A program made the translations under genes and the position numbers. A stretch of DNA of 45,117 bases from an uncultured Bacilli bacterium. GTDB lineage: Bacteria; Bacillota_I; Bacilli_A; RFN20; CAG-449. A model generated the notes under the pieces. The model was given only the letters and a program-made list of their open reading frames with translations. It was not told the origin of the DNA and made no database searches. Below are positions 2,615-17,725 of this stretch, in pieces; within the stretch, counting starts at the first letter, position 1; every line of letters starts with the position of its first letter. The DNA is taken from NCBI GenBank assembly GCA_947632435.1, contig CANRPC010000001.1, positions 139,986-185,102 on the forward strand, given 5' to 3'.

Positions 2615-3169
2615 ATGTTTAAAAAGAAAATAAGTAATGAAGAATTAACAGAAATTAGAGAAAAAAAATATCGTGAAACTTCTTATAAATTAAAAAATAT
2701 TATTGCTCATATGGATGATAAAAAAGATGATCTTCTATCAAAAGTTATTGAGGCACGAAGAAAAGGACTTGCTAAACAAGAAAAAGATGCTAGATCACTT
2801 TTAAAAAAATGTTTAGCAACAAAAAAACAAGTAGAGGGAATGTTGATGACTCTTGAACTTGCTGTTGAATCAAGAGATTTAGCTTCTACAAGTCAAAGTT
2901 TTATGGAAAGCATTGGTGATCTATCAAAAGAAATTCAAGTTTCGAATAAAAAAACAAATGTTAAAAAAACAAGAAAGCAATATCTCAAGGCTTTATATGC
3001 ATCTAAATTACAAACTAATAAAATTGATGAATTTTTATCTTTAGGTGATTATGATTCAGTTTTATCATTTGATGATAATAAAGGTATGGAATTTGATGAT
3101 GAAATAAATTCTATGATAGAAGATGCAGAGGCAAACGTTAATTTTCAAGGTATAAAAAATAAATTTTAA
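2615..3169 (+). CDS. ESCRT-III/Snf7-like helical coiled-coil protein
   Basis: A 184-residue, all-helical, highly charged protein with no signal peptide or membrane segment. Residues about 30-110 form a long basic amphipathic helical hairpin (ARRKGLAKQEKDARSLLKK, then KKQVEGMLMTLELAVESRD). This resembles the alpha1-alpha2 core of Snf7/CHMP proteins, where a basic ARxLLKxK-like stretch is followed by a QLxxLE-type helix. A short acidic C-terminal helix (DDEINSMIEDAEAN) lies where ESCRT-III proteins carry their regulatory or MIM-bearing helix. Residues about 30-150 are clearly paralogous to the N-terminus of the next gene, sharing the motif NVKK(T/S)xK and its spacing. It is the first gene of the island, 15 bases before the FtsK-like gene. 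PspA/Vipp1 belong to the same superfamily and are the main alternative. The fold assignment is by eye. Confidence 0.55.
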   Translation: MFKKKISNEELTEIREKKYRETSYKLKNIIAHMDDKKDDLLSKVIEARRKGLAKQEKDARSLLKKCLATKKQVEGMLMTLELAVESRDLASTSQSFMESIGDLSKEIQVSNKKTNVKKTRKQYLKALYASKLQTNKIDEFLSLGDYDSVLSFDDNKGMEFDDEINSMIEDAEANVNFQGIKNKF

Positions 3170-3184
3170 TCAGGGAGTTATAAA

Positions 3185-5056
3185 ATGTCATTTAAGAGTT
3201 TTCAAAAAGATTTAGAACGAAAAAAAGAAGAACAATCAATGATTGATTCATTAAATTCAATGATTCAAATACTATCTCAAAAGCGCGATGAATATGCTAA
3301 AAAAGCTAAAGAAGAATTAAAAAAAGATAATAAAAGTCAATATTTAGCTTATGTTTCATTATTAAAAAATTCAATGTTTAATTTAGCCCAAACTCAAGAT
3401 ATGCTTGCAAATTATACAATTGCTAAAGATTTAAGAGAAATGCAATCATTGAATAAAAATTTTGTCAAATCAATCGACAAAATTATGAAAAATGTTTATA
3501 AAACAAGTAAATCTGTAAATGTTAAAAAATCTCAAAAAACATTTAACAAAGCAATTTTTGCTCAAATGCAAACATCATCAAAATTAAAGACATTGTTAAA
3601 AGATAATAATTTCTCTTTTTCCAATAGTGTTAATACATTATCTGATATTAGCGATTTAGAAGTTCGTAAAATTCTTGAAGATGAAATTAAAAAAGATGAT
3701 TATGATTTTGAAAATACTCTTAAAAAACTTGAAGATTCACTTTCTATTGAAGATGAAAAAGAATTAGTAACTCCTCAGGCAATAACTATTTCGGGTAAAA
3801 ATGAAGATAATTTATTAAATTCAAATATTAATAATGAAAAGAATAAAAGTGCCGAAGATGAAAATAATAAAGATGATATAGTTAGTATAAATAAAAATAA
3901 TGAAATAAAATCTTTTACTAAAGAATATGTTTATCCTCCTCTATCATTATTAAATGATTATGAAGAAAATACGAAAATTCATGAAGAAAATGAAAAAGAA
4001 ATAAAAGAACTTAAAGAAATATTAGAAAATAAATTGAAAGAATTTCATATTTCAGCAAGTGTTGAACATTATGATGTTGGATCCACATTTTCAAGATTTG
4101 AATTACGCTTAGATAAAGAAACACGTGTTTCTCAAATTGCTGATGTAATTAATGATTTAGCAATTGCCCTAAAGAGAAAAGTTCGTTTGCAAACTTTAAT
4201 AGAGGGTAAAGATTTAATTGGAATTGAGGTTGGTAATTCTATGCGTGAAGTATTAACCTTAAAATCTATATTGGAAAATAATGATATCGCTAAAAACAAA
4301 GAGGATATTAATATATGTTTAGGAGTGGATGTTGATTATAAGACAATAATTAAATCTTTTGATGATTTTCCACATCTTTTAGTTGGTGGAAGTACAGGAA
4401 GTGGAAAAAGTATATTCTTACATTCACTTATAAGTAGTTTATTATTTAATTACAATCCTCAAGAAGTACAAATGGTTTTATTTGATTTTAAACGAGTAGA
4501 ATTTGGCATGTATAATGGTATACCACATTTATTAAATGGTAAAGTAATTGATGAAGTAGAAGATGCATCAAATATTTTAGAATTTTTAAATAATGAGATG
4601 GATAACCGTTATAATAAATTGCTAGATGCAGGAGTAAGAAATATAAAAGAATACAATCAAGAAAATAGCAATAACAAGCTATCAAGAATTATTGTTTTTG
4701 TTGATGAATATGCTGAATTATTGAATTCAAATAGACCTAAAGAAGATGCTGCTTTGTTATTAAGACTTGCTCAAAAAGCCCGCGCATGCGGTATCCATTT
4801 AGTTATATCAACACAGCGACCAGATGTAAAAATAATAAGTGGAAATATAAAAGTTAATTTCCCTACACGTGTTGCTTTTTCTGTTGCATCGCACATTGAT
4901 AGTATGAATATTTTAAATGCTTCTGGTGCAAATGATTTACTCGGTAAGGGTGATATGTTAACAAATGTAGATGGTAAAATAACTAGACTTCAAGCACCAT
5001 TTATTAGTATTAAAGAAATTAAATCAGTGGTTGATTTTATTAAACTTAATAAATAA
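3185..5056 (+). CDS. FtsK/SpoIIIE-type ATPase with an ESCRT-III-like N-terminal domain
   Basis: 623 residues. Residues about 1-170 are a charged helical region paralogous to the preceding 184-residue protein (SVNVKKSQKTFNKAIFAQMQ against TNVKKTRKQYLKALYASKLQ). An acidic, Asn/Lys-rich linker follows (about 180-240), then the FtsK alpha-like segment (YPPLSLLND) and the motor domain. Walker A is GGSTGSGKS (401-409) and Walker B is IIVFVDEYAEL with D507-E508; ISTQRPD and a conserved C-terminal motor region follow. The usual N-terminal membrane segments and the DNA-reading gamma winged helix are both absent, so this is not the chromosomal FtsK/SpoIIIE. It could be a soluble DNA or protein translocase tethered to an ESCRT-III-like polymer. 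The ribosome binding site GGGAG lies just before ATG. Confidence 0.8.
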   Translation: MSFKSFQKDLERKKEEQSMIDSLNSMIQILSQKRDEYAKKAKEELKKDNKSQYLAYVSLLKNSMFNLAQTQDMLANYTIAKDLREMQSLNKNFVKSIDKIMKNVYKTSKSVNVKKSQKTFNKAIFAQMQTSSKLKTLLKDNNFSFSNSVNTLSDISDLEVRKILEDEIKKDDYDFENTLKKLEDSLSIEDEKELVTPQAITISGKNEDNLLNSNINNEKNKSAEDENNKDDIVSINKNNEIKSFTKEYVYPPLSLLNDYEENTKIHEENEKEIKELKEILENKLKEFHISASVEHYDVGSTFSRFELRLDKETRVSQIADVINDLAIALKRKVRLQTLIEGKDLIGIEVGNSMREVLTLKSILENNDIAKNKEDINICLGVDVDYKTIIKSFDDFPHLLVGGSTGSGKSIFLHSLISSLLFNYNPQEVQMVLFDFKRVEFGMYNGIPHLLNGKVIDEVEDASNILEFLNNEMDNRYNKLLDAGVRNIKEYNQENSNNKLSRIIVFVDEYAELLNSNRPKEDAALLLRLAQKARACGIHLVISTQRPDVKIISGNIKVNFPTRVAFSVASHIDSMNILNASGANDLLGKGDMLTNVDGKITRLQAPFISIKEIKSVVDFIKLNK

Positions 5057-5071
5057 AGGAAAATTAAATCT

Positions 5072-5283
5072 ATGGAATTAAAAGAAATGATGAAATGTCC
5101 AAATTGTGGGCAAACATTAGAAATAAAAGACAAAGAATATCAATGTAATTATTGTAAATCAATATTTTATAATGAAGAAATAAATCAATATAATAAAACC
5201 CTAGAAGAAGTATTAGGGGAAACTTTTAATATCCAAAAAAATGAACAAATAGCAAATGCAAGATTTAATTTATATAATGAATT
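5072..5283 (+). repeat. Near-identical gene 5' end, copy 1 (with 9881-10092)
   Basis: About 212 bases starting exactly at the ATG match 9881-10092 with roughly five differences by eye. Similarity then falls abruptly. The ribosome binding regions upstream do not match. Confidence 0.9.
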
Positions 5284-8200
5284 ACATAAAAGATTTTTAA
5301 GCAGTGAAAAAATAATTTATTGGTGTAAAGAGATAAAGAAAAATATACCAAATGATTTCCAAGCAAATTTTTATGAAACAGTAAATGGTAATGATATAAA
5401 TGAAATTAATAATGCAATATTAAGTATAGATGTAAAAAAACATAAAGTATATATAGATGACATAATTGAATTTATGCTTGCATCATTAAATGAACAAAAT
5501 CATATATTAATAGAAGACTTAATTGAAAAATCCTATACAAAAAAAGAAGAAATAGAAAAAAAGGTAAGATATTTAGAAATATTACAAAATGAGATAGAAA
5601 AAATAAATAAAGATACATATGTAATAGATATACCAAGAGATGTATTTATAGCATATTCAAGCAAAGATATAAAAGAAGTAAATGAATTAGTAAATTATAT
5701 AGAAAAAGAAGGACTAACATGTTTTATAGCTCAAAGAAACTTAAGACATGGAAAAAAAGCAATAGAAAATTATGAAGAATATATCCATAAAGCCCTTAAA
5801 TTAGCAAAAAGTTTAGTATTTGTATCAACAGAAAACTCAAGAAGTTTTGAATGTGGAGCAATAGAAGAATTAACATATGTAAGAGATAATTTAAAAGAAA
5901 AAAAATGTTATGAATATAGATTAGATACAATAGAAACAAAATCTGGAATGAAAAAATTTTTATATGATAATGAAGGAATATTTAAGGGAAAAGAATGGAT
6001 ATGTGATAAAGAAGATTTATTAAACGAAATAATAAAAGGGATATATAATAAAAAAAATGATTATCAAATATGCAAAAAATGTGGTGCGGAAATTCCATTA
6101 AATGCAAATTTCTGTTTAAAATGTGGAGTAAATCTAAAACAAGAAATAAATGATATACAAGAAAAAAAGCCAAATGAAGAAAAACAAATAACACTAATAA
6201 ATTCAAATGAAAAAGCAGGAAATATATTAGGAAATGGAACATATAAAAATAAAGAAAATGTTACTATAAAAGCAACATCAAATAAACATTACAAATTTTT
6301 AGGATGGTATAATGAACAAGATTTATGTGTTTCAAATCAAGTTACATATACATTTATAATAGAAGAAAGTCAAACATTAATTGCAAAATGGGATTATGTA
6401 GGTCCATATATATATTATGTTGTTGATGGAGAAATCGTATATAAAGGAAATTATATAGAAAAAGATTTTTACCAACATAAAACAGATAAAAACTTTTATG
6501 GATGGTATGAAACTAAAACATTTAATTCATCTAATAAAAAAATTGATCCCTCAAAATTAACAATTACAGGTGATACTTATGTTTATGGTACAACATTAGA
6601 AACAAAATTTGAATTCGAATATAAAAATGATGGGTATGAAATTACAAAATATAATGATACAAAAGAAAATGTAATTATACCTTCAAAAATTAATAAAATT
6701 CCTGTAATTAGTATAGGAAGAATTACTTTTGCTTTTCACAATACTTTACGTAATATAACAATTCCAAATAATATAACAAAAATAGGAACTGATGCTTTTT
6801 CTTATTGTAAGTCCTTAAAATATAACGAATATGGTAATTGTTTATATTTAGGAAATGAAGAAAATCCATATTTAGTATTGGTAAAAGCAAAAGATGAATC
6901 AATAACAGAAGCAACAATATCAAATAATACAAAATTTATTATGAATAATGCATTCCGATATTGTAGATTTTTACAAAATATAGCAATTCCAAATAGTGTT
7001 ATAGCTATGGGTTATTCAGCATTTTATGGTTGTGCTTCATTACAAAGTATTTTTATTCCAAGCAATGTAAAAAACATTGGAGAACGTGTATTTTCTAGTT
7101 GTTATTCGTTGATTTCAATAAAAGTTGACGAAAATAATAGATATTATGATTCAAGAGACAATTGTAACGCAATAATAGAAACATCAACAAATAAACTAAT
7201 AAAAGGTTGTCAAACAACAATAATTCCAAATAGTGTTATAACTATAGATTATTCAGCATTTTATGGTTGTATTTTCTTACAAAGTATAACTATTCCAAGT
7301 AGTGTCTCAAGTATAGGAGAATGTGTATTCTCTAACTGTAGTTCCTTAACCACAATAATAGTAGATAAAAATAATAAATATTATGATTCAAGAGAAAATT
7401 GTAATGCAATAATAGAAACATCAACTAATAAGTTAATAAGTGGTTGTCAAACAACGGTAATTCCAAGTAGTGTCACAAGTATAGGAGATTATGCATTTAG
7501 TAGTTGCACTAATTTACACAGCATAATCATTCCAAATGACGTTACAAGTATAGGAGAAGGAGCATTCTCTAATTGTACTTATTTACAAAGTATAATAATA
7601 CCAAATAGCGTAACAAGTATTGGTGAACGCGCATTCTCTAATTGTACTTATTTGCAAAGTATAACCATTCCAAAAAGTGTCACAAGTATAGGTGAATACG
7701 CATTCTCTGAATGCAGTTCTTTAACAATTTTTTGTGAAACAAGTAATCAACCAAATGGATGGAATCAGTTTTGGAATTATGATAATTATCCAGTACATTG
7801 GAATTATAAAGAAAAATATGATGATGAAAAATTATTTATACAAGAAAAAAAACAGGTAATAAAACAAATAACACTAATAAATTCAAATGAAAAAGCAGGA
7901 AACATATTAGGAAATGGAACATATAAAAATAAAGAAAATGTTACTATAAAAGCAGCATCAAATAAACATTACAAATTTTTAGGATGGTATAATGAACAAG
8001 ATTTATGTGTTTCAAATCAAGCTACATATACATTTATAATAGAAGAAAGTCAAACATTAACCGCGAAATGGGATTATGTAGGTCCATATATATATTATGT
8101 TGTTGATGGAGAAATCGTATATAAAGGAAATTATATAGAAAAAGATTTTTACCAACATAAAACAGATAAAAACTTTTATGGATGGTATGAAACTAAAACA

Positions 8201-9868
8201 TTTAATTCATCTAATAAAAAAATTGATCTCTCAAAATTAACAATTACAGGTGATATTTATGTTTATGGTACAACATTAGAAACAAAATTTGAATTCAAAT
8301 ATAAAAATGGTGGGTATGAAATTACAAAATATAATGATGCAAAAGAAAATGTAATTATACCTTCAATAATTAATAAAATGCCTATCATTAGTATAGGAAG
8401 TTTTGCATTCTATCATTGTAATAAATTAATTTCGGTAGCATTTGAAACAAATAGTAAATTAAAAATTATAGATGGAATTGCTTTCGCTAATTGTAGCTCT
8501 TTGCAAAGTATAACCATTCCAAGTAGTGTAACAAATATAGGAGATAATGCATTCTCTCATTGCAGTTCTTTACAAAGTATTTCAATCCCAAATAGTATAA
8601 TGAGTATAGGAAATGATGCATTTTATGGTTGTAGTTCTTTGAATTATAAAGAAAGTGGTAATTGCTTATATTTAGGAAATGAAGAAAATCCATATTTAGT
8701 ATTAGTAAAAGCAAAAGATAAATCAATAACAGAAGCAACAATATCAAATAATACAAAATTTATTATGAATAATGCATTTCGATATTGTAAATCTTTACAA
8801 AATATAGCAATTCCAAATAGTGTTATAGCTATAGGTTATTCAGCATTTTATGGTTGTATTTTCTTACAAAGTATAACTATTCCAAGTAGTGTCACAAGTA
8901 TAGGAGAATGTGTATTCTCTAACTGTAGTTCCTTAACCACAATAATAGTAGATGAAAATAATAAATATTATGATTCAAGAGACAATTGTAACGCAATAAT
9001 AGAAACATCAACAAATAAATTAATAAGAGGTTGTCAAACAACAATAATCCCAAGTAGCGTTATAATTATTGGAGAAAATGCATTTAGAGATTGCACTTAT
9101 TTACAAAGTATAATAATACCAAATAGCGTAACAAGTATTGAAGAAGGGGCATTCTTTAGTTGTAGTATGTTGACCAAAATAACAGTAGATAAAAATAATA
9201 AATATTATGATTCAAGAGAAAATTGTAATGCAATAATAGAAACATCAACAAATAAGTTAATAAGAGGTTGTCAAACAACTATAATTCCATGTAGTGTCAC
9301 AAGTATTGGAGAAGGAGCATTTTGTGGTTGCAGTTCGTTAAAATGTATCATCATACCAAATAGCGTAACAAGTATTGAAAATAATGCATTCTTTTGTTGT
9401 AATCATTTACAAAGTATAACAATTCCAAATACTGTAACAAATATAGGAAAATTTGCATTCTCTTATTGCTGTTCTCTACAAAGTATTTCAATCCCAAATA
9501 GTATAATGAGTATAGGGAATGAAACATTCATTGGTTGTGATTCTTTGAATTATAACGAATATAGTAATTGCTTATATTTAGGTAATGAAGAAAATCCATA
9601 TTTAGTATTAGTAAATGCAAAAAATGAATTAATAACAGAAGCAACAATATCAAATAACACAAAATTTATTATGGATAATGCATTTTCCAAGTGTAATTCT
9701 TTACAAAGTATAATAATACCAAATAGTGTAACAAGTATTGGTGAATGCGCATTCTTTGAATGTAGTTCTTTAACAATTTTTTGTGAAACAAGTAATCAAC
9801 CAAATGGATGGAATTTGTTATGGAATTATGATAATTATCCAGTACATTGGAATTATAAAAAAAGATAA
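5072..9868 (+). CDS. Zinc ribbon-TIR-zinc ribbon protein with duplicated InlB/LRR_5 arrays
   Basis: 1598 residues, no signal peptide or membrane helix, so probably cytoplasmic. In order: zinc ribbon (C9, C12, C25, C28); helical segment to about 185; TIR domain about 188-330 (RDVFIAYSSKD, then LVFVSTENSRSFECGAIEEL); a second zinc ribbon (C334, C337, C348, C351); an InlB-type beta repeat from K371 (HYKFLGWYNEQ); then BspA-like LRR_5 repeats (SLQSITIPSSVTSIGECVFSNC type). A second InlB repeat starts near K931, with more LRR_5 repeats. Both LRR blocks end in the same cap (NGWN...NYDNYPVHWNYK). E265 or E266 fits the TIR NADase glutamate position. TIR plus LRR resembles plant and animal receptor layouts, with no NB-ARC; an AAA ATPase is encoded nearby instead. 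Sensing by LRRs and NAD cleavage by TIR are inferred from family knowledge. Confidence 0.85.
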   Translation: MELKEMMKCPNCGQTLEIKDKEYQCNYCKSIFYNEEINQYNKTLEEVLGETFNIQKNEQIANARFNLYNELHKRFLSSEKIIYWCKEIKKNIPNDFQANFYETVNGNDINEINNAILSIDVKKHKVYIDDIIEFMLASLNEQNHILIEDLIEKSYTKKEEIEKKVRYLEILQNEIEKINKDTYVIDIPRDVFIAYSSKDIKEVNELVNYIEKEGLTCFIAQRNLRHGKKAIENYEEYIHKALKLAKSLVFVSTENSRSFECGAIEELTYVRDNLKEKKCYEYRLDTIETKSGMKKFLYDNEGIFKGKEWICDKEDLLNEIIKGIYNKKNDYQICKKCGAEIPLNANFCLKCGVNLKQEINDIQEKKPNEEKQITLINSNEKAGNILGNGTYKNKENVTIKATSNKHYKFLGWYNEQDLCVSNQVTYTFIIEESQTLIAKWDYVGPYIYYVVDGEIVYKGNYIEKDFYQHKTDKNFYGWYETKTFNSSNKKIDPSKLTITGDTYVYGTTLETKFEFEYKNDGYEITKYNDTKENVIIPSKINKIPVISIGRITFAFHNTLRNITIPNNITKIGTDAFSYCKSLKYNEYGNCLYLGNEENPYLVLVKAKDESITEATISNNTKFIMNNAFRYCRFLQNIAIPNSVIAMGYSAFYGCASLQSIFIPSNVKNIGERVFSSCYSLISIKVDENNRYYDSRDNCNAIIETSTNKLIKGCQTTIIPNSVITIDYSAFYGCIFLQSITIPSSVSSIGECVFSNCSSLTTIIVDKNNKYYDSRENCNAIIETSTNKLISGCQTTVIPSSVTSIGDYAFSSCTNLHSIIIPNDVTSIGEGAFSNCTYLQSIIIPNSVTSIGERAFSNCTYLQSITIPKSVTSIGEYAFSECSSLTIFCETSNQPNGWNQFWNYDNYPVHWNYKEKYDDEKLFIQEKKQVIKQITLINSNEKAGNILGNGTYKNKENVTIKAASNKHYKFLGWYNEQDLCVSNQATYTFIIEESQTLTAKWDYVGPYIYYVVDGEIVYKGNYIEKDFYQHKTDKNFYGWYETKTFNSSNKKIDLSKLTITGDIYVYGTTLETKFEFKYKNGGYEITKYNDAKENVIIPSIINKMPIISIGSFAFYHCNKLISVAFETNSKLKIIDGIAFANCSSLQSITIPSSVTNIGDNAFSHCSSLQSISIPNSIMSIGNDAFYGCSSLNYKESGNCLYLGNEENPYLVLVKAKDKSITEATISNNTKFIMNNAFRYCKSLQNIAIPNSVIAIGYSAFYGCIFLQSITIPSSVTSIGECVFSNCSSLTTIIVDENNKYYDSRDNCNAIIETSTNKLIRGCQTTIIPSSVIIIGENAFRDCTYLQSIIIPNSVTSIEEGAFFSCSMLTKITVDKNNKYYDSRENCNAIIETSTNKLIRGCQTTIIPCSVTSIGEGAFCGCSSLKCIIIPNSVTSIENNAFFCCNHLQSITIPNTVTNIGKFAFSYCCSLQSISIPNSIMSIGNETFIGCDSLNYNEYSNCLYLGNEENPYLVLVNAKNELITEATISNNTKFIMDNAFSKCNSLQSIIIPNSVTSIGECAFFECSSLTIFCETSNQPNGWNLLWNYDNYPVHWNYKKR
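6182..6720 (+). repeat. Internal duplication, copy 1 (with 7862-8400)
   Basis: About 540 bases encoding the InlB-type repeat and the following linker recur exactly 1680 bases downstream with only around a dozen differences by eye. The offset is a whole number of codons (560). Confidence 0.9.
7862..8400 (+). repeat. Internal duplication, copy 2 (with 6182-6720)
   Basis: Second copy of the InlB-repeat unit. The flanking LRR sequence also contains shorter near-identical blocks (for example 7228-7369 and 8819-8955), so the gene is a mosaic of recombined modules. Confidence 0.9.
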
Positions 9869-9880
9869 GAGGTTTTATTC

Positions 9881-10092
9881 ATGGAATTAAAAGAAATGAT
9901 GAAATGTCCAAATTGTGGACAAACATTAGAAATAAAAGACAAAGAATATCAATGTAATTATTGTAAATCAATATTTTATAATGAAGAAATAAATCAATAT
10001 AATAAAACCCTAGAAGAAGTATTAGGGGAAACTTTTAATGCCCAAAAAAGCGAACAAATAGCAAATGCAAGATTTAATTTATATAATGAATT
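9881..10092 (+). repeat. Near-identical gene 5' end, copy 2 (with 5072-5283)
   Basis: Matches the first 212 bases of the upstream TIR-LRR gene, then diverges sharply in the helical region, as expected from gene conversion or a recent partial duplication. Confidence 0.9.
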
Positions 10093-11710
10093 GCGTGATG
10101 GTGATAATGATAAATGGATTTTTAAACAAAAAATTAATGGGGATAAAATTAAAGAGCATTGTAATGAAATTATAAGATATTTGCCAAATGATTTTCGTGC
10201 AAAATTTTATCCTTGTGTTGTAAATAATAATATAGATGAGATTTATAAATTAATAGATAGTAAAGAAGCAATAGATTATAAAAATGATATTGTATATTTT
10301 ATTCTTCATAATATGAAAAATCTTACTAGAAGTAAAAGCCTTATAATAAAATTAAAAGATTTTGTGAAAGATCAATATGCTTCAAATGATATAAAAAAAT
10401 GTTTATTAGAAAAAATAGAAAAAGAAGACAAGCTTATAGAAAATGGGTATTATGAACCAAAAGAAATTTTTATAATTTATGCTAATGAAGACGAAGATAA
10501 AGTGTCTAATTTAATGACAAAATATTTAGAAAAAAATAATGTTCAGTGTTTTTTTAAAAAAGAACATTTAGGTACTATTATAATTAATAATAATATTAAT
10601 GAAGATGAAATTTTAAAAAATATTTTATTAGAGTGCAAAAAAGTTTTATTTATTGCATCTGAAAATTCTAAATTAAATAATAGTCAATCTATAAAATTAT
10701 TAGAAGAAGCAAATAAGCAGAAAAAAATTGTTTTTGAATATAGAATAGATAAGTCAATATCACAAGAAAAAATACGTAAATTATGTAGTAAAAATATTAT
10801 TTGTAATTCAATAAATGAATTATTATTTAAATTAAATCCAAATTATACCCCTATTGTTAAACAAGAAGATGAAGATAAATACATACCTATTGAGAAGCAG
10901 GATATAATTTTTGATAAGTCTGAATTTGCAATTGAAGAAACAAAATTGGTAAAATATATTGGTAATAAAACTGATGTAATAATTCCTAATGGAATAACAG
11001 AAATATGTCCTGAAGCATTTAAAGGTAAAACAAATCTTTTGACCATTCTTTTTCCTCCAACAGTTTCAATTATAGGTGAAGAAGCTTTTGAAGATTGCAC
11101 ATCGCTAAGTTCAATCAACATACCTAATAAAGTTAAAAAAATTGAAATAGGTACGTTTAATGGTTGTACTTCCTTAAATTCAATTTATATTCACAAAAAT
11201 ATAGAAATTGTAAAACAAAAAGCATTTTACAATTGTTCTTCATTGTCAAATGTTATTATTGAAAATTGTGACACTATTTTAGAATATGAAGCTTTTGAAA
11301 GATGTGGATTAATTAATTATAAAAAATATGAACATTGTTTCTATCTTGGTAATAAATTTAATCCATTTATGATTTTGATAAAAGGTGATGTGTTTATTAA
11401 AAATGTCAATTTATATCCAGATACAAAAGTAATTGCGCCAAGAGCATTTTCAGGATGTGTTGATATTGAATCAGTAAATTTATCATTGAATTTGGAAAAA
11501 ATAAGTCATCATGCTTTTAAAGGATGCAAAAAACTAAAAAGTATTAATTTACCTTCATCAATAAAATCAATTGAAGAAAAAGCATTTGAAGAATGTAAAA
11601 AATTAAAAATTTACACGGAAATAGATAATGATACAATTAAAACATGGCCTACAAATTGGAAACATCGATCTGCAAAAGTTATTTATAATAAAAAAAAGGT
11701 TGCTAATTAA
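9881..11710 (+). CDS. Zinc ribbon-degenerate TIR-LRR_5 protein
   Basis: 609 residues, no export signal. The N-terminal zinc ribbon (C9, C12, C25, C28) and the next 40 residues are almost identical to the previous protein. A helical stretch follows, then a TIR-like domain at about 193-305 (PKEIFIIYANEDED, KKVLFIASENSKLN). Here the segment that should carry the catalytic Glu reads NNSQSIKLLEEANK, without the C-xxx-E arrangement seen in the larger protein, so the NADase site may be lost. Residues about 350-590 are LRR_5 repeats (SIIGEEAFEDCTSLSSINIP type). It has no second zinc ribbon and no InlB repeat. The gene starts 12 bases after its paralogue ends, with AAGAGGT as binding site. It may be an enzymatically inactive partner or regulator of the full TIR-LRR protein; that role is inference. 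Confidence 0.75.
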   Translation: MELKEMMKCPNCGQTLEIKDKEYQCNYCKSIFYNEEINQYNKTLEEVLGETFNAQKSEQIANARFNLYNELRDGDNDKWIFKQKINGDKIKEHCNEIIRYLPNDFRAKFYPCVVNNNIDEIYKLIDSKEAIDYKNDIVYFILHNMKNLTRSKSLIIKLKDFVKDQYASNDIKKCLLEKIEKEDKLIENGYYEPKEIFIIYANEDEDKVSNLMTKYLEKNNVQCFFKKEHLGTIIINNNINEDEILKNILLECKKVLFIASENSKLNNSQSIKLLEEANKQKKIVFEYRIDKSISQEKIRKLCSKNIICNSINELLFKLNPNYTPIVKQEDEDKYIPIEKQDIIFDKSEFAIEETKLVKYIGNKTDVIIPNGITEICPEAFKGKTNLLTILFPPTVSIIGEEAFEDCTSLSSINIPNKVKKIEIGTFNGCTSLNSIYIHKNIEIVKQKAFYNCSSLSNVIIENCDTILEYEAFERCGLINYKKYEHCFYLGNKFNPFMILIKGDVFIKNVNLYPDTKVIAPRAFSGCVDIESVNLSLNLEKISHHAFKGCKKLKSINLPSSIKSIEEKAFEECKKLKIYTEIDNDTIKTWPTNWKHRSAKVIYNKKKVAN

Positions 11711-11730
11711 TTTTAGAAAGTGGTGATTAT

Positions 11731-12834
11731 ATGAATTATTCAGAAGAATATTTAAATGATAAATTTAAAAAAAGTTACGATGATGCATTAAGAGCATATA
11801 AGTATAATAATTTACCTCTTGCTAAGGAAAAATTTATTGATGCTGCTTCGTATTTAGAGCAATTAGCAAATTGTTTTACAGGATCAAAAAAAGATGAATA
11901 TTTACAAAAATCAAAAAGAGTAAAAAAAGTTGCAGATGCAATTATACTTGCCCCAAGAAATGATTTTAACACTGTACAAACTAGCTATAATAATTCGCAA
12001 ATAATAAAAAATGATATTACTAAAAATTCAATGAGTGAATATATAACATTTTATACTGCTGAAGAATTAAACGAAGGTTTTGAAAGCGTTATTGGTTTAG
12101 AAGAAGTTAAAAAAACTATTATAAATTATGTTGTTAATCCAATTAAATTTCCAGAAGCATATAATTATAAATTTTTAAATAATAAAGCTGTTTTGTTAGA
12201 AGGACCACCTGGAACAGGTAAAACGACATTTGCTAAAGCTATCGCTAAAGAAATCAACCAACCATTTGCGTTGATCAATGTCGCATCACTTGTTAATTGC
12301 TATATTGGTGAAACAGGTAAAAATATTGATAAAGTTTTTCAATATTTACGCGACTATGTAGAAAAAAATAAATGTGGAATTACCGTATTCTTTGATGAAT
12401 TAGATGAAATTGCTAAAAAAAGAGGCGGAGATGACAAAACATCAGAATCAGCAGTCCCTGCATTATTAAGAAATTTAGATGGTGTAAGACAAAACAAAAA
12501 CTTCTTAATTATAGCAAATACAAATTTAAAAGATGCTTTAGATGAAGGTATTAAAGAACGATTTAGACAAAAAATACATATTCCTTTACCAAATAAAGAA
12601 GAAAGAAAACAATTATTTAAAATAAAGCTTTCAGATGTTGAAAGTAAATTTCTTAAACAAATTAATTTTGATAAAATTAGTGATTTATCTGATGGCTTAA
12701 GTGGTAGAGATATAACTTACATATGTGATGATTTAAAGTATGAGCTTTCAAGAATTAAAGCTTACAATATTGAAGATGTAAACATTCTAGAAGTATTAAC
12801 TGATATTATCAATAAAAAAATATCACAAAAATGA
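11731..12834 (+). CDS. Vps4-like AAA ATPase with MIT-like N-terminal domain
   Basis: 367 residues. Residues 1-75 form a three-helix bundle pattern (ALRAYKYNNLPLAKEKFIDA, then ASYLEQLANCF and a Lys-rich third helix) like the MIT domain of Vps4. The AAA domain matches the Vps4/katanin/spastin clade: GLEEVKKTIINYVVNPIKFP, Walker A GPPGTGKT (158-165), pore-loop aromatic Y191 (NCYIGETGK), Walker B VFFDELDE (D222, E223), Arg finger R277 in IKERFRQKIHIPLP, and LSGRDITYICDD in the small domain. The IHIPLP and VNPIKFP matches to Vps4 are striking. In known systems such ATPases pull ESCRT-III subunits apart, and an ESCRT-III-like protein is encoded at the head of this operon. Classic Vps4 has a beta domain and C-terminal helix, which I cannot confirm here. 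A generic Cdc48/FtsH-like AAA is less likely. Confidence 0.8.
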   Translation: MNYSEEYLNDKFKKSYDDALRAYKYNNLPLAKEKFIDAASYLEQLANCFTGSKKDEYLQKSKRVKKVADAIILAPRNDFNTVQTSYNNSQIIKNDITKNSMSEYITFYTAEELNEGFESVIGLEEVKKTIINYVVNPIKFPEAYNYKFLNNKAVLLEGPPGTGKTTFAKAIAKEINQPFALINVASLVNCYIGETGKNIDKVFQYLRDYVEKNKCGITVFFDELDEIAKKRGGDDKTSESAVPALLRNLDGVRQNKNFLIIANTNLKDALDEGIKERFRQKIHIPLPNKEERKQLFKIKLSDVESKFLKQINFDKISDLSDGLSGRDITYICDDLKYELSRIKAYNIEDVNILEVLTDIINKKISQK

Positions 12835-12844
12835 AAGGATAAAT

Positions 12845-13147
12845 ATGGAAACTAGTAAAAGTAATAATAATGTCGGTAAAAAATTAAAGATGTTACGTGC
12901 AGAATATGATTTTACACAAGAAGATATTGCAAAAAAATTAGGAATAACTCAACAAACTTATAGCAAATATGAACAAAATGGGAATTTGAGTGCAAAAGAT
13001 ATTAAAAAAATATGTGAAATATATGGAATTTCTTCTGATTATCTTTTAGGAATTGAACCTAAAAAGAGTTCAAAAAAAATCACTAAAACCAGTTATGATA
13101 TAGATTATATTGTTAATGAAGTAATTTCAAAACTAAATAAAGAATGA
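12845..13147 (+). CDS. XRE-family HTH regulator
   Basis: 100 residues. Residues about 13-68 form a Cro/C1-type helix-turn-helix (FTQEDIAKKLGITQQTYSKY, then ISSDYLLGI). A short Lys-rich tail follows. It starts 10 bases after the Vps4-like gene with AAAGGA as binding site, so it is made from the same message. It is a candidate autoregulator of the island; I do not see a clear operator. Ends in TGA, which supports the standard bacterial code. Confidence 0.85.
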   Translation: METSKSNNNVGKKLKMLRAEYDFTQEDIAKKLGITQQTYSKYEQNGNLSAKDIKKICEIYGISSDYLLGIEPKKSSKKITKTSYDIDYIVNEVISKLNKE

Positions 13148-13167
13148 TTACAATATAGGAGTTTAAT

Positions 13168-14241
13168 ATGATTGTATGTAAAAATTGTGGAGCAATATTT
13201 GATGATTTTCTTGGTAAATGTCCATATTGTAAATCGCCAAATAATAACAATGATGATAAAGATAAAAAAATAAATAAAAATTTTTCTAATTCGCAAAAAA
13301 ATGAATCTTTTATATATAAGTATAAAGATTTTATAAGTGATGAAAAATTATATCAAACTGCATTACTTGAATTAAATGTTAATAATCATTATGAAAATGC
13401 ATTAGAAATGTTTCGTGAATTAGCATATCGAGGACATCTTGATGGAATGTATATTTTTGCAGATTTACTTCTTAAACAAATGAATCCCGATAAGAATTCC
13501 GCTTTAAAATGGTTAAGATATGCGGCTAGCAATGGTCATCAAAAAAGCAAAATTAAACTTGAGATGTTAGATGATAATAACAATTTTATAAGCAATAATA
13601 TTGACGTTTCTAATTCTAATTTATCTACTTTAATCTATAAAGCTTTACCATTTGTTGTAAGTATACAAGTGGTTAAAAATAAATTAAATGGAGTAGAAAT
13701 AAGTCAAGGATCAGGTTTTGTGATAAAAGGTGGTTTTGTAGTAACTAATGCTCATGTTATTATAGGTAATATAAATGATTATGAAAATGGGATAAATCAA
13801 ATAAATAGTATTCAAGCATGCTATGAAACCAATATTTCTTCAATTCCTTACTTGCTTACACCTATTAAAATAATTCCTGAATTAGATATTGCTGTATTAA
13901 TTTTTACAGGAGAAAAAGCTAAAAAAGTAAAATATCAAGATTGTCTTTCATTTAGAATTGATAATCTCAAATATGGAGAGCAAGTTTACACAATAGGGAA
14001 TCCACTTGGTGTAGGTTTAAGTGTTTCTCAAGGAGTTATATCATCTCCTAATCGTGATTATGGTAATAAAGAATTTATTCAAGTAGATATGGCTATAAAT
14101 CATGGAAATTCAGGAGGAGCACTTCTTGACATGAATAATAATGTCATCGGTATGGTTTCAGCTACACCATCAAATCGGGAAGATGGTATGGCATTATGTG
14201 TTCCAGCAAAATATATTGTTCAAGTTTTAAATAAATTATAA
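13168..14241 (+). CDS. Zinc ribbon-Sel1-trypsin-like serine protease
   Basis: 357 residues with no signal peptide or membrane helix. An N-terminal zinc ribbon (C4, C7, C18, C21) is followed by a charged linker, a Sel1/TPR-like helical repeat region at about 55-125 (GHLDGMYIFADLLLK, ALKWLRYAASNGHQKSK), then an HtrA/DegP-like trypsin fold. The triad is complete: H196 (VVTNAHVI), D240 (ELDIAVLIF) and S315 (HGNSGGALLD). There is no PDZ domain, unlike normal HtrA. A cytoplasmic protease with a Zn ribbon and Sel1 repeats suggests processing of a partner in the island rather than envelope quality control. The ribosome binding site is TAGGAG. Trypsin-like peptidases occur as effectors or processors in bacterial conflict systems; the substrate here is unknown. 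Confidence 0.85.
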   Translation: MIVCKNCGAIFDDFLGKCPYCKSPNNNNDDKDKKINKNFSNSQKNESFIYKYKDFISDEKLYQTALLELNVNNHYENALEMFRELAYRGHLDGMYIFADLLLKQMNPDKNSALKWLRYAASNGHQKSKIKLEMLDDNNNFISNNIDVSNSNLSTLIYKALPFVVSIQVVKNKLNGVEISQGSGFVIKGGFVVTNAHVIIGNINDYENGINQINSIQACYETNISSIPYLLTPIKIIPELDIAVLIFTGEKAKKVKYQDCLSFRIDNLKYGEQVYTIGNPLGVGLSVSQGVISSPNRDYGNKEFIQVDMAINHGNSGGALLDMNNNVIGMVSATPSNREDGMALCVPAKYIVQVLNKL

Positions 14242-14255
14242 AGGAGATATTAAAG

Positions 14256-15068
14256 ATGTTATTTAAAAAAGAAAAACCTGTTATTGAAATTAACAATAAT
14301 AATGAATATTTACTATGGAAATTAAATATCAATGATATTCCATATGATACCAAACTTTGTGTTGGTGATGGATGTGAAGCAATATATATTGAAAATGGAG
14401 ATATTAAAAGGTTTAAAAGTGGCCAAGAGTATGTTATAAATCAAAAAAAGATTGGCAAGAACAAAAAGATGATACTTGTTGGATCAAAAGTAAATTATAG
14501 ATTTGTGCTAAGATGTGGTACAAAAGAAAAATTTTTATTAAAAGACCCAACAGATAGATCAAAAGCAGGAACTTATGTTGGTTCTTCCGCGGATATTAAT
14601 GTAAAATTAATAAATGCTAGACAACTTTATGACAATTTTAAAGATTTAGAACATCTAACTAATAATTTCTTTGATGATTATGTAAACGATACTTTAAACC
14701 ATTTATTAAGTTTAGAATGCGATTATTTAAAAAATAAACCAGTAATAGATACTGCAAAAAATATTAAAGAAGTAGAAAAAAAATTAAAACAAAGCGTTCA
14801 AGATTATCTTGAAAAATATGGCATAGAAGTAGAAAATTGTTTAATTCATATTGCCTATGATGAAGAATATCAAAAACATATTCGTGATGTCGATGCAAAT
14901 TATCAAAAAGAAAATGATCAATTTAGAAAAACGAGAAAAGAAATTGATTTAATGCAAAAAATTCAAGATGGAACAAACGAATCTAAAAAAAATACTAAAT
15001 GTTCATTTTGCGGAAATGAAATTGATTCAAATAATATGTTCTGTCCAGTTTGTGGAAGAAAAATTTAA
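14256..15068 (+). CDS. SPFH-like protein with C-terminal zinc ribbon
   Basis: 270 residues. The N-terminal half is a beta-rich region (LLWKLNINDIPYDTKLCVGD, EAIYIENGDIKRFKSGQEY) resembling the SPFH/virion-core-like family of YdjI type. Alpha-beta and helical segments follow (ARQLYDNFKDLEHLTNNFF; VQDYLEKYGIEVENCLIHIA), as in band-7 proteins where a C-terminal helix drives oligomerisation. The C-terminal zinc ribbon is CSFCGNEIDSNNMFCPVCG. There is no obvious membrane helix. SPFH proteins typically form membrane-associated rings or scaffolds, so it could be the platform for the island's other products. A strong AAGGAGA site precedes ATG, 14 bases after the protease gene. Confidence 0.6.
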   Translation: MLFKKEKPVIEINNNNEYLLWKLNINDIPYDTKLCVGDGCEAIYIENGDIKRFKSGQEYVINQKKIGKNKKMILVGSKVNYRFVLRCGTKEKFLLKDPTDRSKAGTYVGSSADINVKLINARQLYDNFKDLEHLTNNFFDDYVNDTLNHLLSLECDYLKNKPVIDTAKNIKEVEKKLKQSVQDYLEKYGIEVENCLIHIAYDEEYQKHIRDVDANYQKENDQFRKTRKEIDLMQKIQDGTNESKKNTKCSFCGNEIDSNNMFCPVCGRKI

Positions 15069-15085
15069 ATTGTTGGAGGTAAAAA

Positions 15086-16513
15086 ATGTTTTTTAAAAAA
15101 TATTTAAATGTTAAAGTGTTAAATCTTAATAATACTAATAAAAGGATTATAAAAGAAAAATTAGATGAACTTCTAAATGGAAATTATTCTAAAGAATTAA
15201 GATCCAAAATAAGAAATCTTTTTAATCGTGTTGATGAAACTGCATCAGATAACAAAAAATGTATTGAATTTGATTCTAAAATTATAAGTTTATTAAATGC
15301 TGCACTTGATAATAAAACATCTGAATCAAGTGTTGCATTATATGTAAACAAAGCAAGTGAATTGTTATTAAAAAGAAATAGCAGTGGAATTATGGAAAAT
15401 AGTGATTTTTTCAATAAACCAAAAAAAGTCATTAAACAAGAAAGAAAATTAAAATTAAAACAAACAAAAAATAATCTAAATGATTTATTAACTCCTGAAG
15501 ATTTGATTACAATTACACTTGATCAATTAAATGATAAAAAAGAAAAACTACTCACTGAATTGGATAATGCTAATAGTTCAGTAATGTATAATGCTATTAA
15601 AACAAAAATTACCACGATTGATAATCAATTAAAAATGTATGGTAACGAATTACTAAAAAATGTCTTGTATGAAAATTATAAATCTTTATCTGAAGAAGAA
15701 AAGAAAGCTAGAAATATTAATGGTTTTTCTGATGCTGACTTTGAAGATGCAGCAGATAAAATTAAAAATTTTGGTATTGAGATAACTGAGCAGACAGAAA
15801 AACTTGAAAATATTATTGATGAATATACTAATAATTCTTCTAATGGTAAAACAAATTCCGCATCTAAAAGTAAATATGAATCAACATCTAGTTTAAATGC
15901 AACAAAATCCTCTAATAATGGCGATATTGATGAATTTGAAATGCGTCAAATCTTTAAAAATTTAGATGAAAATATCGAAAAATTAGAACAAAGATTAGGT
16001 GAATTAAATAATGAACTCGATATTTTAAATAATGAAAGAGGTAATTTAGCAGAAGATTTGAAAGAATTATTATTAGAAAGAAAAGATGCTACTGCATCTG
16101 AATGCAAAATTTTAGATAGTAAAATAAATCAATTACAAAAGAAATATCAAATTAATGGCAGAAACATCGATGAGAAAATTAATGCAATCAGTACTTTGAA
16201 CGAATATCTAGATCATTCAAATATGCTTAAAAATGTACGTGATCGAAAAGAAAATGATGAAAAAATTATTTTTGGAAAATTTGGGATGTTTGATGACATG
16301 GAACGTACAGCACTTTATATCAAGAATTACATTGAAAAATGTAATGAAAAATTGGATAGTTCTTCTATGGCTAATAGTGTTGCATCCTCTTCATCGTGGA
16401 ATACTTCTTCAATTGCAAGTACAGATTTAAATAATACATATACTGGTGAAGTAAAAGATGATGATAAATTTAAAGATCTTGAAATTGAATTAGGAATTAG
16501 GCAAAAGAATTAA
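15086..16513 (+). CDS. Long coiled-coil protein of unknown function
   Basis: 475 residues, hydrophilic, largely helical, with no membrane segment. Heptad-rich stretches lie at about 130-190 (LTPEDLITITLDQLNDKKEK), 205-250 and 280-365 (LDENIEKLEQRLGELNNELD). A Ser/Asn-rich linker at about 250-280 and a Ser/Thr-rich C-terminus suggest flexible hinges. I do not recognise a family. In the island it lies between the SPFH-like protein and the CbxX-type ATPase, so a structural or polymer-forming role beside the ESCRT-III-like subunit is plausible. The binding site is TTGGAGG. Confidence 0.6.
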   Translation: MFFKKYLNVKVLNLNNTNKRIIKEKLDELLNGNYSKELRSKIRNLFNRVDETASDNKKCIEFDSKIISLLNAALDNKTSESSVALYVNKASELLLKRNSSGIMENSDFFNKPKKVIKQERKLKLKQTKNNLNDLLTPEDLITITLDQLNDKKEKLLTELDNANSSVMYNAIKTKITTIDNQLKMYGNELLKNVLYENYKSLSEEEKKARNINGFSDADFEDAADKIKNFGIEITEQTEKLENIIDEYTNNSSNGKTNSASKSKYESTSSLNATKSSNNGDIDEFEMRQIFKNLDENIEKLEQRLGELNNELDILNNERGNLAEDLKELLLERKDATASECKILDSKINQLQKKYQINGRNIDEKINAISTLNEYLDHSNMLKNVRDRKENDEKIIFGKFGMFDDMERTALYIKNYIEKCNEKLDSSSMANSVASSSSWNTSSIASTDLNNTYTGEVKDDDKFKDLEIELGIRQKN

Positions 16514-16600: not shown

Positions 16601-17725
16601 ATGGAAAGTTTTGAATATTTAGAAATTTCAATAGAAAATATGTTAACTAAATCGGAAAATGCTTTGCAAAAAGGAAATGTTTCACTTGCAAAGCAATTTA
16701 ATGATTTAGCAATAAAGCAAATCAAAAAAATAATTGAAATTTATCCTAATAATAGCAGTGAATATAAGAACAAATTAAATGAAATTCAAAATAAAGAATT
16801 TAAAAATGTTCCTCAGTTAAAAAATGAAACAATTAATAATATTGATAATAGAGAGCAATCTCCAAATAAAACTTATAATAATGATGATAAAAATAATCAA
16901 GAAATTAATATTTCAAGTTTACAAGAATCACTTAATAAATTAGATAGTTTGATTGGTTTAAATGCTGTAAAAAAGCAAGTTAAAAGTTGGATTAATACAG
17001 TTAATTTTTCACGTAGAAGGGAAGATATAAATTTAAAAAAAATTTCAAAATCATATCATTTAGTATTTTCAGGTAATCCTGGAACTGGAAAAACAACTGT
17101 AGCTAGAATTATTGCTGATATATGCAAATCCTTAGGAATTGTTTCAAAAGGCCATTTAATAGAAGTTTCTGCAGAAGATTTAGTTGCAGAATATGTTGGG
17201 CAAACCGCGATAAAAACAAAAAAAGTTATTGATAGTGCTTTAGGTGGAGTTTTATTTATTGATGAAGCATATTCATTAAATTCAAAGGGGAATACATTTG
17301 GTGAAGATGCTATTAATACATTACTTAGAGCAATGGAAAATAATCGTGAAGATTTTATCGTTATTGTTGCAGGATATAAAGATGAAATGAAAAACTTTAT
17401 TTCATCTAATCCTGGATTAAATTCTAGATTTCAGTATTTTATTGAATTTGAAGATTATAATGCTGAGGAATTATATAAAATTTTTGAAAAAATGTGTTCA
17501 GATGCTGATATGAAAATAGAATTAAAAGCTCAAGAAAAATTGAAAAACTATTTTATAAATTTATTTGCTAATCGTTCTGAAACGTTTGGTAATGGTAGAG
17601 ATGTGAGAAAGTTTTTTGAAAAGACTTTAGAAAATATGGCAAATCGCTTAGGTGAAAAACTCTACTCTAATGTTAATAAAGATGAATTATCAATTATTAC
17701 ATGTGATGATATTATAACAAGTTAA
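16601..17725 (+). CDS. CbxX/EccA/SpoVK-type AAA ATPase with MIT-like N-terminus
   Basis: 374 residues. Residues about 1-70 are a helical bundle (KSENALQKGNVSLAKQFNDL, then IKQIKKIIEIYP) with the same ALxxGNxxLAKxxF pattern as the Vps4-like protein at 11731. A linker follows, then a CbbX/CfqX-family AAA domain: LIGLNAVKKQVKSWI, Walker A GNPGTGKTT from G158, pore segment VAEYVGQTAIKT, Walker B GGVLFIDEAYSL (D221, E222) and sensor/Arg finger region NPGLNSRFQYFIEF. Relatives include Rubisco activase CbbX, SpoVK and EccA of type VII secretion. It starts 87 bases after the coiled-coil gene with a strong AGGGAGG site. Two different AAA motors with the same kind of N-terminal adaptor in one operon suggests both act on one helical polymer; this is inference. 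Confidence 0.8.
   Translation: MESFEYLEISIENMLTKSENALQKGNVSLAKQFNDLAIKQIKKIIEIYPNNSSEYKNKLNEIQNKEFKNVPQLKNETINNIDNREQSPNKTYNNDDKNNQEINISSLQESLNKLDSLIGLNAVKKQVKSWINTVNFSRRREDINLKKISKSYHLVFSGNPGTGKTTVARIIADICKSLGIVSKGHLIEVSAEDLVAEYVGQTAIKTKKVIDSALGGVLFIDEAYSLNSKGNTFGEDAINTLLRAMENNREDFIVIVAGYKDEMKNFISSNPGLNSRFQYFIEFEDYNAEELYKIFEKMCSDADMKIELKAQEKLKNYFINLFANRSETFGNGRDVRKFFEKTLENMANRLGEKLYSNVNKDELSIITCDDIITS

Follow-up and report, generated by a model that had tools for sequence, protein, structure and literature searches.

An FtsK-type motor module joined to an ESCRT-III-like domain in a bacterial operon

Bacteria are not known to encode pairs of the ESCRT-III/Vps4 type. Systems that come close have nevertheless been described on several sides. 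Some archaeal ESCRT systems also have SPFH genes nearby (PMC10936438), and PspA/Snf7 proteins occur with AAA ATPases in some bacteria (PMC11237479). Defence systems that capture FtsK-type motors have also been described (PMC10853773). Here, we describe an operon of an uncultured Bacilli bacterium in which an FtsK motor module is fused to a helical domain resembling ESCRT-III. Neither an ESCRT-III–FtsK fusion nor an operon of the SPFH/MIT-AAA/TIR type was described in the open-access literature that we searched (preprints excluded), which is as far as the claim of a new architecture, made in an earlier note on this DNA, can be followed.

The operon and its FtsK fusion

The operon lies in a 45,117-nt stretch of contig CANRPC010000001.1 (assembly GCA_947632435.1), here called the window, and all coordinates are positions within it. 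The genome is a draft of 42 contigs, and the contig carrying the fusion is 185 kb long. Nine genes with the same orientation form an operon-like run from 2615 to 16513, spaced by 10–20 bp and mostly preceded by a recognisable ribosome-binding site (all features given below are on the plus strand). The run opens with a 184-aa ESCRT-III-like protein (2615..3169; B-type, the upstream partner, whose tail is not clearly MIM1-like), followed by the 623-aa fusion (3185..5056). Two zinc-ribbon/LRR proteins come next: one of 1598 aa (5072..9868), built as zinc ribbon, TIR, zinc ribbon, InlB/Flg_new and BspA-type LRR, and one of 609 aa (9881..11710), with a zinc ribbon, a weak TIR match below the cut-off and a BspA-type LRR. 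These are followed by a 367-aa protein combining a MIT-like domain with a Vps4/CdvC-like AAA ATPase (11731..12834), an Xre-type helix-turn-helix regulator (12845..13147), a zinc ribbon joined to a trypsin/HtrA-like protease (13168..14241), an SPFH (band 7) and zinc-ribbon protein (14256..15068) and a 475-aa coiled-coil protein (15086..16513). A CbbX/SpoVK-type AAA ATPase (16601..17725), set off by an 87-bp gap, is a looser member. Six TIR domains could be aligned, including that of the 1598-aa protein, and a single glutamate is common to all of them. Among the operon genes that were scanned, Pfam recognised no nuclease domain. Immediately before the operon, positions 65–2398 encode a large protein that carries Flg_new repeats and, at its C-terminus, a Hint-like match below the cut-off; Hint-like domains are of the self-splicing or self-cleaving type.

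The fusion starts with its ESCRT-III-like domain (residues 1–187; 3185..3745), predicted to contain helices at residues 2–46, 50–108, 111–140, 157–169 and 175–186. This domain is closed by a MIM1-like motif, DYDFENTLKKL (residues 172–182; 3698..3730). A polar, low-complexity linker, assigned from its sequence (residues 188–250; 3746..3934), leads into an FtsK alpha domain (residues 251–351; 3935..4237; PF17854, E 4.6e-20) and an FtsK/SpoIIIE motor (residues 359–547; 4259..4825; PF01580, E 1.2e-43). The Walker A (GSTGSGKS), Walker B (IIVFVDE) and STQRP motifs of the motor are all intact. The chain stops right after the motor, with no gamma domain (PF09397), and it has no transmembrane helices: its highest 19-residue hydropathy is 1.15, versus 2.92 in the chromosomal FtsK, a separate full-length protein with membrane helices encoded in the same genome. 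A plasmid search returned FtsK motors only, the best at about 41% identity, and none covered 80% of the query.

The N-terminal domain of the fusion is homologous to the 184-aa protein encoded directly upstream. Residues 15–170 of the latter align with residues 12–166 of the fusion at 26% identity without long gaps. In BLASTP, the pair scores 63 bits (E 2e-17) without composition correction and 43.5 bits (E 1e-9) when composition-adjusted, and in a whole-genome search the match has an E-value of 3e-8. Because both proteins are charged and helical, we used coiled-coil nulls. The score of the pair was reached by none of 1000 plain shuffles (z 13), by none of 1000 shuffles that kept the hydrophobic/charge pattern with a shifted register, and by three of 1000 that kept both pattern and register. 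Among 34 real, unrelated, charged helical ORFs, scores reached at most 76, versus 155 for the pair. A profile built only from relatives outside the window recovers both the 184-aa protein (E 3.5e-22) and residues 6–185 of the fusion (E 1.8e-18). A complete FtsK alpha and motor module is thus joined to a homologue of the adjoining ESCRT-III-like protein.

The observation made on this pair in the earlier note is confirmed. Both ORFs are where it had placed them (2615–3169, 184 aa; 3185–5056, 623 aa), its alignment of the first 170 residues of the FtsK-like protein with the 184-aa protein is borne out by BLASTP, the shuffles and the relatives-only profile, and the absence of membrane helices and of the gamma domain is confirmed by hydropathy, the end of the chain and the lack of PF09397. 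It had also held that a similarity no better than that of random coiled coils would refute the idea, and the comparison with unrelated helical ORFs does not show this. The shared helix spacing it had reported is found in predicted models, where separate AF2 runs give the same helix series. The NVKK(T/S)xK motif that it had pointed to is present (NVKKTRK and NVKKSQK), but it is peculiar to the pair in the window and is not a motif of the family. What the note had missed is the operon, the spread of the family in Clostridia and Bacilli, and an alternative fusion of FtsK to a Vps4-like ATPase in a relative.

Probable ESCRT-III and Vps4 kinship

Whether the helical domains belong to the ESCRT-III family rests on lines of evidence that are each weak or moderate. 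In the AF2 model of the 184-aa protein (pLDDT 80), helices span residues 8–49, 53–110, 114–142 and 157–183, and the model of fusion residues 1–187 (pLDDT 75) has the same series. Both domains thus show, in predicted models only, a long alpha1–alpha2 hairpin followed by alpha3–alpha5 within about 200 residues. In Foldseek, the first eight PDB matches of the 184-aa model are all ESCRT-III proteins (CdvB, CdvB2 and CHMP2A), the best with a non-significant E-value of 0.03. For the fusion domain, designed proteins take the first two places and Asgard ESCRT-IIIB the third, none of them significant. The lack of an ESCRT-III match that is significant by E-value excludes nothing. In the VIA fold comparison, the fusion domain is best matched by Asgard ESCRT-IIIB (Z 11.2, 2.0 A over 112 residues), with CHMP1B structures next and bMERB domains close behind ESCRT-III (Z 9.9). 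For the 184-aa model, BAR domains come first and ESCRT-III lower; helical folds inflate Z in this comparison.

Sequence profiles give a signal at the level of the family. Snf7 is the commonest Pfam family among the relatives (9 of 27, best E 6e-6; the next family is matched by 4), and neither window domain matches it directly. Whole-genome searches placed no member of the B family above the Pfam Snf7 cut-off, and control genomes also gave weak signals. The three best Snf7 places in 25 Clostridia and Bacilli genomes are the B genes themselves, below the cut-off, as found by matching positions to loci. Searching PDB sequences with profiles from the ESCRT-like alignments yielded nothing significant, and a profile comparison of helical partner A with ESCRT-III (E 0.085) does not show homology. 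The PspA_IM30 profile has no match above its cut-off in this genome, its best place (E 0.14) being outside the operon.

The tails of these proteins add a further line. The ESCRT-III family has a known MIM1 consensus, and a relaxed pattern of it finds MIM1-like tails in 11 of 20 members, where 1.3 would be expected from shuffles, and almost none inside the chains. Such tails also end 9 of 12 further non-redundant members from the GTDB scan, typically as DxxIEKELxxLKK. In the window, the fusion has kept the motif, while the 184-aa protein lacks a MIM1-like tail.

The ATPase partner gives another line of evidence. MIT is the commonest Pfam match among the N-termini of the family ATPases (8 of 33, best E 3.4e-5), and these N-termini also match an archaeal Vps4-type MIT structure (E 5e-5). 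TPR consensus proteins outscore this structure, through repeated short matches. For the window ATPase, the MIT-like domain (11731..11970) rests on this family-level evidence: the copy has no Pfam MIT match of its own and is counted as MIT-like by alignment only. Its AAA part is clear, but its match to the CdvC model (E 1e-38) is outscored by that to the proteasome-activating nucleotidase (3e-41). In the PDB, Cdc48 scores highest for the AAA part, and Vps4_C is matched only at E 0.003, in G010, a genome from the same family as that of the window.

As the fold, the Snf7 matches of the family, the MIM1-like tails and the linkage to a MIT-like AAA ATPase agree, the ESCRT-III label is supported, and we consider kinship of the system with ESCRT-III/Vps4 likely, in the absence of data on polymerisation or membrane binding. 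The reading of the earlier note, an FtsK-type motor fused to an ESCRT-III-like domain, is to that extent upheld, its ESCRT-III part by individually weak lines that agree.

Relatives and variants of the system

The helical family is patchily distributed. It occurs in 14 of the 279 genomes of the order, in a few more of the class, and in 5 of the 58 nearest relatives. A scan of GTDB genomes gave 96 relatives, mostly from uncultured Clostridia, Christensenella-like and Bacilli genomes, of which 80 loci were kept (L097–L176). In total, the family is found in about 90 Bacilli and Clostridia loci, most commonly in the order SPFH-zinc ribbon, A, B and MIT-AAA. Every one of the 80 loci has a MIT-like ORF (76 with an AAA domain), helical partner A lies directly upstream of B in 75, and SPFH is present in 70. 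TIR genes lie near the core in 43, trypsin-like genes in 27 and BrxL in 8. The wider helical family was absent from the viral contigs searched.

The fusion itself is rare, being confined to a single draft genome among those searched. No FtsK was found in the 80 loci of the GTDB scan, and in the roughly 90 other loci no FtsK is fused to an ESCRT-like gene. Searches of genome and viral collections with the fusion domain found no close relative. The search for the same fusion in other genomes, suggested by the earlier note as a check, thus found it nowhere else.

A different FtsK fusion is present in G010, where a 799-aa protein joins the MIT-like AAA ATPase to FtsK alpha and motor domains. Fusion of the FtsK motor has thus involved the ESCRT-like part in one lineage and the Vps4-like part in another. 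One tree groups the two fused motors as sisters (86/76 support), another leaves them unresolved, and branches are long in both.

Several further arrangements were seen in relatives. The G010 fusion (L042:2293-4692) adjoins an ESCRT-III-like gene. In G014, also of the same family, L046:686-2764 encodes a weak but recognisable TIR domain fused to FtsK alpha, motor and gamma domains, with a degenerate Walker A; no ESCRT-like gene was detected in that genome. An operon of the same type in G034 (L044:7390-9462) unites a MIT-like domain, a CbbX-type AAA and a Vps4-like AAA in a single 690-aa protein. In a divergent version of the operon in G179 (L081:6158-7792), a MIT-like N-terminus is apparently joined to a RuvB-like AAA ATPase, and this ORF is followed by a second AAA and a trypsin-like protease. 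BrxL (BREX Lon-like ATPase) sits between the MIT-AAA and TIR genes at L043:7527-8951 and L045:6351-7790.

Proposed function, alternatives and known systems

The explanation that we favour, with moderate confidence, is an ESCRT-type bacterial machine, probably serving defence, that has captured a DNA translocase; its polymerisation, membrane binding, DNA pumping and role in defence are all inferred. As part of this explanation, and with the same moderate confidence, we regard the 623-aa protein as a captured FtsK DNA translocase with an ESCRT-III-type domain in place of its membrane anchor. In such a machine, the SPFH protein would mark a membrane platform for the ESCRT-III-like polymer, which the 184-aa protein may form together with the N-terminal fusion domain at the inner membrane face. 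The polymer would then hold an FtsK alpha/motor hexamer at the membrane, in place of the FtsK anchor, where it may pump or strip DNA. The MIT-like AAA ATPase is predicted to grip the MIM1-like tail that closes the ESCRT-III-like domain and to remodel or dismantle the polymer. The TIR and protease proteins would be the effectors of a response to incoming DNA, most likely of a defence or envelope-damage type. In G010, with its FtsK motor on the MIT-AAA ATPase, the same two machines would be coupled through the other partner. We read the system as defensive because of its TIR, trypsin-like and BrxL neighbours, its patchy distribution and the known theme of FtsK capture (PMC10853773). A bolder reading, which we would at present sooner doubt than adopt, is that Clostridia and Bacilli own a true membrane-remodelling immune machine of the ESCRT-III/Vps4 type, in which a DNA translocase has become a polymer subunit in this lineage. 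If so, a single assembly would carry out both membrane remodelling and DNA movement where invasion occurs.

The main functional rival is a role in division or DNA clearance. Here, an ESCRT-III-type polymer would constrict or seal membrane at the closing septum while the FtsK motor attached to it clears DNA, which would give the cell a second segregation machine, a soluble one. In other cells, ESCRT-III as well as FtsK acts late in division, and the fusion motor retains the alpha domain of the DNA translocase. Against this, the system is patchy (even among nearest relatives and within the order, as counted above), its companions are TIR, trypsin-like and BrxL genes and not division genes, and the full-length chromosomal FtsK is a separate gene. 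We consider this role unlikely.

It is likewise unlikely that the helical domains are no kin of ESCRT-III but generic coiled coils for membrane binding or scaffolding (PspA-, bMERB- or BAR-like), which resemble it only through their long helical hairpins. In favour of this are the lack of a significant Foldseek E-value, the similar Z reached by bMERB and BAR domains, and the missing direct Snf7 match of the window proteins. However, ESCRT-III tops the Foldseek list of the 184-aa model and the VIA list of the fusion domain, the relatives match Snf7 more often than any other Pfam family, the domains come with MIM1-like tails and a MIT-like ATPase, and no PspA profile match exceeds the cut-off in the genome.

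A system resembling type VII secretion, with the 184-aa protein as WXG100-like substrate and the FtsK-like protein as EssC-like engine, is very unlikely. FtsK/SpoIIIE ATPases do drive type VII secretion, and the neighbouring 475-aa coiled-coil protein has a weak WXG100 match (E 0.018). The genome also holds a separate EssC/WXG100-looking cluster (L050; G000 C2:38000-52000) with genes of WXG100 size and a 1174-aa ATPase resembling FtsK/EssC. We set this reading aside, as the fusion motor is nearer to the DNA translocase FtsK (E 1e-74) than to EssC (7e-29), and the fusion keeps the FtsK alpha domain, has a single ATPase domain and lacks a TM helix. Moreover, the 184-aa protein is modelled as a four-helix ESCRT-like chain and not as a 100-aa hairpin. 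Least likely of all is an assembly or annotation artefact in which two genes were wrongly joined. For it speaks only that the exact fusion was seen once, in a 42-contig draft; against it, the ORF is unbroken, has a ribosome-binding site and lies on a 185-kb contig, and G010 has another FtsK fusion to this system.

Returning to the preferred reading of an ESCRT-type machine with a captured translocase, what is new here is an ESCRT-type system in bacteria that carries a DNA motor, its ESCRT kinship being likely. The recurrent SPFH/A/B/MIT-AAA operon is a larger finding than the fusion set within it. The fusion would physically tie a membrane polymer to a DNA pump, both functions being inferred. 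With an operon this compact, co-assembly, binding of the ATPase to the tail and DNA translocation can be tested directly, and many natural variants are available among the Clostridia relatives.

Compared with canonical FtsK/SpoIIIE, the fusion shares the alpha and motor domains, intact Walker and STQRP motifs and about 40% identity in the core, but lacks the transmembrane N-terminus and the gamma domain, and coexists with a separate full-length FtsK. With PspA/Vipp1 and the PspA–Snf7–AAA neighbourhoods (PMC11237479), the system has in common the ESCRT-III superfamily fold, here from predicted models, and the AAA or SPFH partners found in some bacteria, whereas the absence of a PspA_IM30 match above the cut-off, the MIT-like ATPase and the MIM1-like tails point to the Snf7/Vps4 side. 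The archaeal and eukaryotic ESCRT-III and Vps4 (Cdv) systems share the ESCRT-III-like helix series, MIM1-like tails, a MIT-like domain on an AAA ATPase and paralogues in one operon. Unlike them, the present system belongs to Bacilli and Clostridia, comes with zinc-ribbon SPFH, TIR, trypsin-like or BrxL genes, and in the window carries an FtsK motor on one of its ESCRT-III-like subunits. Finally, like the HerA/FtsK capture systems (DndFGH and relatives; PMC10853773), it has an FtsK-type motor with its alpha domain in a conflict-type cluster, fused to foreign domains, as seen in the window and in G010 with TIR and protease neighbours. Restriction nucleases are the partners in those systems; in the present one, the motor is paired with an ESCRT-III-like or MIT-AAA module, and TIR and protease proteins are the likely effectors.
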